64,000 bases of DNA from Mucispirillum schaedleri ASF457 (GTDB lineage: Bacteria; Chrysiogenota; Deferribacteres; Deferribacterales; Mucispirillaceae): contig NZ_CP097562.1 in assembly GCF_000487995.2 (NCBI RefSeq), forward strand, positions 310,001-374,000. The letters are read 5' to 3'. Numbering within the stretch: position 1 is the first letter of the stretch; every line of letters starts with the position of its first letter. Under the pieces are notes generated by a model that saw only the letters and a list, made by a program, of their open reading frames with translations, did no database searches and was not told the DNA's origin. A program made the translations under genes and the position numbers. Shown one piece after another: positions 12,835 through 15,622 of the stretch.

Positions 12835-13098
12835 TTATTTCATTAGAGTATTAAACAGAGAAACAAGTTCATCTATTTTTTTATCTACATCACCATTTTT
12901 TGCGGTATCACGAACACATGATAATAGATGAGCTTTTAAAACTACATTATTAGTTTTACGCATAAGAGCTTCTACTGCAAATATTTGGTTTGATATATCC
13001 ATACAATATCTGTCATCTTCCACCATTCGCATAATACCTTCTATGTGACCTTTTGCTGTTTTTAAAAGTAGTAAAACTTCTGTTTTATCTGCTTTCAT
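12835..13098 (-). CDS. csoR: CsoR-family copper-sensing transcriptional repressor
   Basis: This 87-residue all-helical DUF156 protein is expected to bind DNA when apo and release it on binding Cu(I). The copper ligands are visible as Cys32, His57 and Cys61, with the same 25 and 4 residue spacing as the Cys-His-Cys set of characterised CsoR proteins. That favours copper over nickel or formaldehyde sensing (RcnR/FrmR). Its ATG overlaps the copA stop (TAATG), so the two are translationally coupled. The likely target is the inverted repeat upstream of copA at 15603-15622, giving autoregulation of the whole operon. Confidence 0.9.
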   Translation of the reverse strand: MKADKTEVLLLLKTAKGHIEGIMRMVEDDRYCMDISNQIFAVEALMRKTNNVVLKAHLLSCVRDTAKNGDVDKKIDELVSLFNTLMK

Positions 13099-13313
13099 TA
13101 AACTTTCTCCACTGAAACTGCTTCAAAACCAGCTTCATTTACAACATTCATTAAATCACTGTCTGCAACTTCTTTTGATAAGGTTACAGACGCATTTTTT
13201 GCTTCTAAATTAACTTCAGCAGAAACTACCCCATCTACAGTATTTAATGCTTTTTCAACCGCCATTTTACAATGATTGCAGTTCATACCGTTTACATTAA
13301 CAATAACTTTCAT
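13098..13313 (-). CDS. copZ: Possible internally initiated copper chaperone (CopZ) inside copA
   Basis: Within copA, codon 758 is an ATG at 13313 preceded by AAAGGAG at ideal spacing. From there the frame encodes exactly one complete 71-residue heavy-metal domain starting MKVIVNVNGMNCNHC, as a free CopZ would. The upstream ATPase part ends naturally at ALRLKFF before a ten-residue linker. The sequence therefore looks like copA and copZ joined by loss of the copA stop, with the copZ start signal kept. Whether free CopZ is made is inference; the site itself is plainly visible. Confidence 0.5.
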   Translation of the reverse strand: MKVIVNVNGMNCNHCKMAVEKALNTVDGVVSAEVNLEAKNASVTLSKEVADSDLMNVVNEAGFEAVSVEKV

Positions 13314-15584
13314 AATTTTATCTCCTTTACTATATTCTTCTGCTTTAAAAAATTTTAATCTTAAAGCATTAGTTACAACAAATATTGAGCTGAAACTCAT
13401 AGCAGCAGCAGCTATCATTGGGTTTAATGTAATACAAAATGACTTATAAAAAATACCTGCAGCTACTGGAATACCTATAATATTATAAAAAAAAGCCCAA
13501 AACAAGTTTGTTTTAATATTCTTAATAGTTGCATGGCTTAATTTTACAGCAGTTAAAGCATCCAGCAGATTATTTTTTATTAAAATAATATCTGCTGATT
13601 CTAATGCTACATCAGTTCCTGCTCCTATTGCTATTCCTAAATCAGAACGCATTAATGCAGGTGCATCATTAATACCATCTCCTACCATAGCAGTTTTAAT
13701 GCCTTTCTTTTGAATTTCTTTTATTATATTTTCTTTATCTTGTGGTAACAGCTCCGCATATACATTATTAATTCCTGCCTGATTAGCAATATGCTCTGCA
13801 GTTTCTTTATTATCCCCTGTAAGCATATATACATCTATACCCTGTTCTCTAAAACCTTTTACTGCTTCTATACTTGACTCCTTAATAGTATCAGCCACAT
13901 ATATAATACCTATTACTTCATTATTGTCTGCGATATAAACAGGTGCAACAGCTTTATCTGGCAAAAGCATATTAGAAATTTTAGTAATATCTATATTATT
14001 ATCTAATATAAATTTTCTATTACCAGCATAATAAGTAATATTATTTATAGTGCAGGATATACCAAGACCTGAATAAGAAGTAAAATTTTCAACATTTAGT
14101 AATTTACATTGTAATTCTTCTGCTTTTTCAACAATAGCTTTTGAAACAGGATGCTCAGATTTTACTTCCATAGAATAAGCAAGCTGTAATAAATCATTTT
14201 GACTGTATTTAAATGACTGAATGTTTACAACTTTCATTTTTCCTTCTGTGATAGTTCCTGTTTTATCAAGAGCAACAGCTTTTATATTATGTGCCATTTC
14301 AAGACTTTCTGCAGATTTTATCAATATACCATGTTCTGCACCTTTACCTGTGCCAACCATTATAGCAACAGGAGTTGCAAGCCCTAAGGCACATGGGCAG
14401 GATATTACCAAAACAGATATTGCAATAGATAAAGCAAATTCATAACTTTCACCCATATAAAGCCAGAATATTCCAGAAATTAAAGCTATAACAATAACGA
14501 TTGGCACAAATATGCCGCTTATTTTATCAGCAAGTTTTGAAATAGGTGCTTTTGAGTTTGCAGCATCTTCTACTAAAGATATTATTTGGGATAATGTAGT
14601 ATCTTTGCCAACTTTTAATGCTTTAAATCTTATATGACCAGTTTTATTAATAGTGGCACTTATTACTTTATCTCCCTGTTTTTTCTCAACAGGTATACTT
14701 TCACCAGTAATAGCTGATTCATCAATAGAAGCAGCACCTGAAATTATTATGCCATCACAGGCTATAATACCACCAGGTTTTACTACTATAATATTTCCAG
14801 CCTGTATATCGTCATAGGCAACAGTCACTTCTTTACCATCTTTTTCTACTATGGCAGTTTTTGGTGTTAAACTGATTAATTTTTCAACAGCATCCCGAGT
14901 TCTTCTTTTTGATTTTGTTTCAAGATATTTTCCAAGAGTAATTAAAGTTAAAATAGTAACAGCTGATTCAAAATATAAGTCATGACTGTATTTCATAACT
15001 ATTGATGTTTCCTGATAAGTATATCCATGCACTATTTTATATATTGCAAATATACCATATATTACAGCAGCAGATGAGCCAAGAGCAACAAGACTGTCCA
15101 TATTAGGAGCTTTATTAAACAATGCCTTAAACCCATTAATAAAATATTTTCTATTAACTATTAAAACAGGTATTGTAAGTAAAAAAAGAGTAAAAGCATA
15201 ATTAAAACTTCCTTCATAATGCTTAAAAAAAGAAAACTGCGGAAGTCCTGCCATACTGCCCATAGATAAATACATTACAGGAATAAAAAATATAAATGAG
15301 ATAACAAGCCTTTTTCTCATATTTTCAAGCTCTGTGTCATAAGGAAGTTTTTGAGTCTGTTTTGAAGTCACCTTATTATTTTCTATTTCTGCACCATACC
15401 CTGCTTCAGTAACCGCTGAAATAATATCACTGCTTGATACTGCATCATCATATTCTACCACCATACTATTTGAAAGCAGATTAACATTAACATTTTTAAC
15501 TCCATTAACCTTAGCAACAGCTTTTGTAACATGAGCAGAACATGCAGAACATGTCATACCTGTAATATTATACTTCTCTTTCAT
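13098..15584 (-). CDS. copA: Copper-exporting P1B-type ATPase with C-terminal CopZ-like domain
   Basis: This ATPase pumps Cu(I) out of the cytoplasm. It has 828 residues: an N-terminal heavy-metal domain (GMTCSAC at 9-15), eight predicted membrane helices, the TGES actuator loop (293-296), the CPC metal site (396-398), the DKTGT phosphorylation site (440-444), SEHP (486-489) and GDGIND (635-640). After the usual C-terminal membrane pair comes a short linker and a second heavy-metal domain (GMNCNHC at 766-772). A C-terminal domain is uncommon in CopA, where such domains are normally N-terminal. The linker carries an in-frame ribosome-binding site and ATG (see the internal copZ entry). AGGAGT precedes the main start. 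The operator and csoR support copper control. Confidence 0.95.
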   Translation of the reverse strand: MKEKYNITGMTCSACSAHVTKAVAKVNGVKNVNVNLLSNSMVVEYDDAVSSSDIISAVTEAGYGAEIENNKVTSKQTQKLPYDTELENMRKRLVISFIFFIPVMYLSMGSMAGLPQFSFFKHYEGSFNYAFTLFLLTIPVLIVNRKYFINGFKALFNKAPNMDSLVALGSSAAVIYGIFAIYKIVHGYTYQETSIVMKYSHDLYFESAVTILTLITLGKYLETKSKRRTRDAVEKLISLTPKTAIVEKDGKEVTVAYDDIQAGNIIVVKPGGIIACDGIIISGAASIDESAITGESIPVEKKQGDKVISATINKTGHIRFKALKVGKDTTLSQIISLVEDAANSKAPISKLADKISGIFVPIVIVIALISGIFWLYMGESYEFALSIAISVLVISCPCALGLATPVAIMVGTGKGAEHGILIKSAESLEMAHNIKAVALDKTGTITEGKMKVVNIQSFKYSQNDLLQLAYSMEVKSEHPVSKAIVEKAEELQCKLLNVENFTSYSGLGISCTINNITYYAGNRKFILDNNIDITKISNMLLPDKAVAPVYIADNNEVIGIIYVADTIKESSIEAVKGFREQGIDVYMLTGDNKETAEHIANQAGINNVYAELLPQDKENIIKEIQKKGIKTAMVGDGINDAPALMRSDLGIAIGAGTDVALESADIILIKNNLLDALTAVKLSHATIKNIKTNLFWAFFYNIIGIPVAAGIFYKSFCITLNPMIAAAAMSFSSIFVVTNALRLKFFKAEEYSKGDKIMKVIVNVNGMNCNHCKMAVEKALNTVDGVVSAEVNLEAKNASVTLSKEVADSDLMNVVNEAGFEAVSVEKV

Positions 15585-15602
15585 ATAAACTCCTGTATTC
15601 CC

Positions 15603-15622
15603 TACCCCTGTGGTATGGGGTA
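15603..15622 (-). promoter_or_regulatory. CsoR-type operator upstream of copA
   Basis: The inverted repeat TACCCC-N8-GGGGTA is typical of CsoR operators: G/C tracts flanked by TA in an otherwise AT-only region. It lies right where transcription from the promoter at 15629-15657 would begin, so bound CsoR would block initiation. Confidence 0.8.

Follow-up and report, generated by a model that had tools for sequence, protein, structure and literature searches.

A putative in-frame internal start for a CopZ-like copper chaperone at the end of copA in Mucispirillum and many Firmicutes

In Escherichia coli, programmed ribosomal frameshifting allows copA to encode a free copper chaperone as well as the pump itself (Meydan et al. 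2017 and Drees et al. 2017, cited in PMC7558416 and PMC10187127). The copA gene in the window, by which we mean the whole 64,000-nucleotide stretch of Mucispirillum schaedleri ASF457 DNA analyzed here, raises the question of whether a pump and a free chaperone might also be made from one gene through a second start codon in the same frame. An earlier note on this DNA had claimed that the copA frame continues beyond the ATPase into an HMA domain and that codon 758, an ATG preceded by AAAGGAG, begins a CopZ-like protein of 71 residues. Both claims held: a single frame contains the Pfam HMA domain twice, codon 758 encodes the first residue of the terminal HMA domain, and the coordinates and HMA score agree with the description (Table 1).

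Table 1. Features of the copA-csoR locus (positions are those of the window)
Feature	Position	Strand	Basis or remark
csoR-type copper repressor gene	12835..13098	-	PF02583, 82 bits; start overlaps copA stop (TAATG)
copA-copZ fused gene	13098..15584	-	single open frame, 828 aa: HMA domain at the N terminus, copper P1B ATPase core, CopZ-like HMA domain at the C terminus
Putative nested in-frame copZ, 71 aa, internal ATG (13313..13311) to stop shared with copA	13098..13313	-	HMA 52.3 bits
Linker from last transmembrane segment to HMA domain, doubling as copZ leader	13314..13352	-	peptide variable in relatives, SD and start kept
Internal Shine-Dalgarno (SD) sequence AAAGGAG, ending 8 nt before internal ATG	13322..13328	-	pairing energy -8.8
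SD sequence AGGAG for copA start	15590..15594	-	sequence
Perfect 20-bp dyad TACCCCTGTGGTATGGGGTA, TACCCC-N8-GGGGTA, upstream of copA	15603..15622	.	predicted CsoR operator

The long product is a CopA-type copper P1B-1 ATPase, with Pfam domains PF00403 (twice), PF00122 and PF00702, a CPC motif in the form SCPCALG, a DKTGT motif and a score of 589 bits against NCBIfam TIGR01511 (cut-off, 397 bits). The dyad upstream of copA is the sole match to TACCCC-N8-GGGGTA in the window, with 0 matches in 100 shuffles, and is likely to be a CsoR operator. With csoR following copA and this dyad preceding it, the locus resembles an ordinary CsoR-controlled copper export operon, as judged from known CsoR operators. 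Elsewhere in this genome (G000:C1:269306-271441) lies a gene for another P-type ATPase, 37% identical and carrying a single HMA domain at its N terminus.

Scored alone, the 71-residue piece matched Pfam HMA with an E value of 7.6e-14, and it has the layout of a single-HMA chaperone: about 70 residues, a CxxC motif in the form GMNCNHC, and its own SD sequence and ATG. Its best NCBIfam matches were CopZ families, but the scores fell below the narrow family cut-offs (the best, NF047957, gave 67.6 bits against a cut-off of 85), and we therefore call the product CopZ-like rather than a member of a curated family. The C-terminal HMA domain of the window gene scored 75.9 bits against free CopZ proteins and 58.9 bits against the metal domains of CopA. 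Across 194 fused genes, the C-terminal domain was nearer to free CopZ than to the N-terminal HMA of CopA in 192, despite a free CopZ set 7 times smaller. As far as sequence similarity can tell, these scores establish a CopZ ancestry for the terminal domain.

Immediately before the internal start, the minus strand reads GAATATAGTAAAGGAGATAAAATT-ATG. The pairing energy of this SD sequence with the 16S tail (Table 1) is stronger than that at the copA start (-6.9) or the csoR start (-6.4), and none of the 18 further in-frame ATGs tested within copA comes close to it, the next best reaching -4.3. When the peptide KGD was held fixed, however, the window SD sequence was unexceptional (synonymous-shuffle P = 0.28). 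Since KGD already favors an SD-like sequence, a single case proves little; we rejected a reading of the start signal from the window alone, in which the gene is suggestive only, and the significance comes from a comparative set.

This set comprised 194 distinct copA genes (169 nonredundant) from Mucispirillum and many Firmicutes, each ending in an HMA domain in the same frame; many of the genomes are incomplete assemblies. The publicly available relatives of the window's genome are other Mucispirillum genomes, with 69 to 92% protein identity. In 8/8 Mucispirillum orthologues of the set, copA is fused and has both the ATG and an SD-like sequence; one of them (L010) uses another motif, GAGGT, as its SD, within a different peptide. 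A start signal was counted where ATG or GTG directly preceded the last HMA domain and the SD energy was -5 or lower. Such a signal was present in 185 of the 194 fused genes (~95%) and in 160 of the 169 nonredundant ones, so that the proposed check on whether fused relatives keep the ribosome-binding site (RBS) came out strongly in its favor. To avoid circularity, the start codon was picked blind to the SD sequence in a second test, in which a strong SD was one with an energy of -6 or lower. Eighty-six percent of the blind-picked starts had a strong SD, versus 2 to 9% when the same linkers were scored 3 to 25 codons farther upstream. Among 3,150 other internal in-frame Met codons, 8% reached this value, and in 107 of 138 genes the SD of the terminal start was unmatched by that of any other internal Met codon.

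Furthermore, we made synonymous shuffles of the linkers that preserved both peptide and codon usage. The mean SD energy was -8.9 in the real linkers versus -5.6 in the shuffled ones (z = -19.9), and the predicted RNA structure around the start was weaker than in the shuffles (P = 7.5e-9). G content peaks at 84% at position -12, with low flanks. The 185 signal-bearing genes have 143 different tetrapeptides directly before the start, and two codon phases account for most positions of the SD core, which argues that it is the nucleotides that are constrained and not the peptide. A conserved start codon and SD sequence within a longer frame, as found here, is one of the marks by which nested internal initiation of the Cas11 kind is recognized.

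The C-terminal-HMA architecture of CopA is very common in Firmicutes. It was found in at least 73 of 120 genomes of the Anaerococcus family and over 100 times among the matches listed for one class (391 genomes), and it recurs many times in a further class. C-terminal metal domains were also known already, the CopA of Archaeoglobus, with two metal-binding domains (MBDs), having one (PMC11970713). The earlier note's statement that the metal domains of CopA are normally N-terminal thus needs to be restricted.

Departures from the usual signal were inspected individually. Four signal-bearing genes have lost the Met codon at the start, and 4/4 have GTG at the usual position (SD -9 to -16). A clade related to Anaerococcus (L092, L095, L096, L125, L128, L129 and L132) encodes CopA proteins with two C-terminal HMA domains; in 7/7 inspected, the SD sequence and ATG stand at the last domain, and the first domain mostly lacks even a Met codon. 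In tandem pairs of N-terminal HMA domains, the second domain carries a Met codon in 1/10. Ten genes that had appeared to be exceptions without Met were reduced on inspection, 3 using GTG and 4 belonging to the clade just described, whose start is at the last HMA domain.

Nine of the 194 fusions have no start signal. A strong separate copZ (a product of at most 110 aa with an E value of at most 1e-12) accompanied 4 of these 9 versus 6 of 88 fusions with a signal (Fisher P = 0.006). A clear stand-alone copZ was not found in the seven well-assembled Mucispirillum genomes tested, one of which (G001) gave a marginal 101-aa CopZ match only; split relatives in the same order encode a CopZ of 73 to 83 aa directly after copA. 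Genome content thus lends moderate support to a nested copZ, no more than moderate because many assemblies are incomplete and five fusions without a signal (L213, L221, L226, L235 and L252) have no obvious strong free CopZ either. These five are possible cases of true loss, in organisms that may manage without a free chaperone.

The earlier note had further proposed a gene fusion that kept an internal start, and it had called for a search for relatives in which copA and copZ are split. Such relatives exist. In them, the copZ RBS lies within or beside the end of copA, and copZ often overlaps the copA end, as in GGAGGAAATATTATGA. The split pairs of L224, L262 and L217 overlap or nearly do so in the ATGA manner, with the copZ RBS inside copA, and are apparent intermediates of fusion. 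Loss of the copA stop codon or a small indel would have been enough to bring both genes of an adjacent or overlapping pair into one frame with the RBS retained. Where the C-terminal HMA domain is absent, as in two Firmicutes loci (L263 and L265), copA can instead run directly into an overlap with csoR. When the two states, fused and separate, were mapped on a tree of 132 ATPase cores, 11 changes were required. The Mucispirillum CopA branch falls within a Firmicutes clade with 99% local support, apart from its own order, and Mucispirillum therefore probably received the already-fused gene, within a copper operon, by horizontal transfer. This placement speaks against a simple fusion from a split ancestor of the same order. 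The part of the proposal that stands is the retention of the start, which is seen in relatives as well; the fusion is not particular to the Mucispirillum genome.

Taken together, these results suggest that in-frame internal initiation gives free CopZ in addition to a pump with a tethered chaperone, a reading to which we assign a probability of about 0.88 on the comparative sequence evidence. A single mRNA, probably controlled by CsoR, would be read from two in-frame starts. Initiation at the first ATG would give CopA with the CopZ-like domain tethered after the last transmembrane helix, and initiation at the internal AAAGGAG-ATG would give a free 71-aa CopZ chaperone that could deliver Cu(I) to the ATPase. 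The tethered copy would presumably bring a benefit of its own.

It could instead be supposed that there is no internal initiation, such that the C-terminal HMA is a metal-binding domain of the pump and the SD-like pairing comes from purine-rich linkers. These linkers do pair fairly strongly even when synonymously shuffled (mean, -5.6), and the Archaeoglobus protein (PMC11970713) offers a precedent for a C-terminal MBD in a pump. Chance pairing is contradicted, however, by an SD peak that is restricted to the start position and exceeds the shuffles. A role in the pump alone also fits poorly with a start codon that changes solely to GTG among signal-keeping genes, with upstream C-terminal HMA copies that lack the signal, and with a terminal domain that is CopZ-like rather than MBD-like, and we consider this account very unlikely. 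Slightly less credible still is the idea that the stop codons were lost by accident and only recently, so that the old copZ RBS has yet to decay. Split and fused states do alternate on the tree (the 11 changes above), and split genes that overlap are arranged almost as the fused ones are. Yet fusion extends throughout deep clades with ~45 to 55% identity and linkers that differ greatly in length and peptide. The signal is nevertheless kept in 160/169 nonredundant genes, and the Mucispirillum gene with GAGGT achieves this in a different peptide. The free chaperone might also be released by proteolysis of the linker, for which exposed charged linkers would be plausible sites, but proteolysis would not conserve an SD sequence and an ATG or GTG, and the linker peptides share no motif; of the accounts considered here, we give this one the least credence.

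Internal initiation itself is compatible with two views of the long form. The free CopZ could be the sole selected product and the in-frame read-through that yields the tethered copy neutral, as the better conservation of start signals than of linkers, and the great differences in linker length, would allow. We regard this as rather doubtful, since stop codons should be gained easily in the linkers of AT-rich genes and yet the frame is open across many lineages, which suggests that the long form is useful too. We lean, with some reserve, toward the view that dual-product copA genes are widespread in Clostridia, other Firmicutes and Mucispirillum and that both forms are selected and so have distinct roles, for example, one as a tethered loader and the other as a scavenger that diffuses through the cytosol or a messenger to CsoR.

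As with CopA(Z) in E. coli, a single copA gene would here supply the pump together with a chaperone in free form. The E. coli chaperone is the N-terminal domain, produced by frameshifting and early termination, whereas the one proposed here is the C-terminal domain, translated in frame from a start within the gene. If true, this would be a second, independently evolved route to a pump and a chaperone from one gene. Cas11 is likewise the C-terminal part of a large protein made as a separate small protein by in-frame internal initiation, within cas8 or cas10 (McBride et al. 2020; PMC11899642); the system is unrelated, and here the small domain is a former neighbor gene, copZ, that became fused. 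The CopA of Archaeoglobus fulgidus (PDB 3fry) also has an HMA domain at its C terminus, but that domain is known as a pump domain alongside a separate CopZ and is only weakly similar to ours (E = 9e-4). Separate copA-copZ operons, such as those of the split relatives and of the copper ATPase and tcrZ on Enterococcus plasmids, have the same genes in the same order with the same kind of SD sequence before copZ, but a stop codon between pump and chaperone precludes a tethered product. In the literature searched, which takes in only a minority of subscription papers, we found no report of a copper chaperone translated from within copA, and such a start is apparently undescribed so far.

A nested copZ would make directly testable a long-standing question, namely, how the role of a metal-binding domain attached to the pump differs from that of the same domain set free, and a screen for an SD sequence and start codon before a terminal domain, judged against shuffles, could uncover other nested genes. 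If the free copper chaperone is made, annotation would miss it in many gut and human-associated Firmicutes. A plasmid gene of Roseburia sp. 831b that shares this layout, for example, carries the annotation of one ATPase coding sequence.
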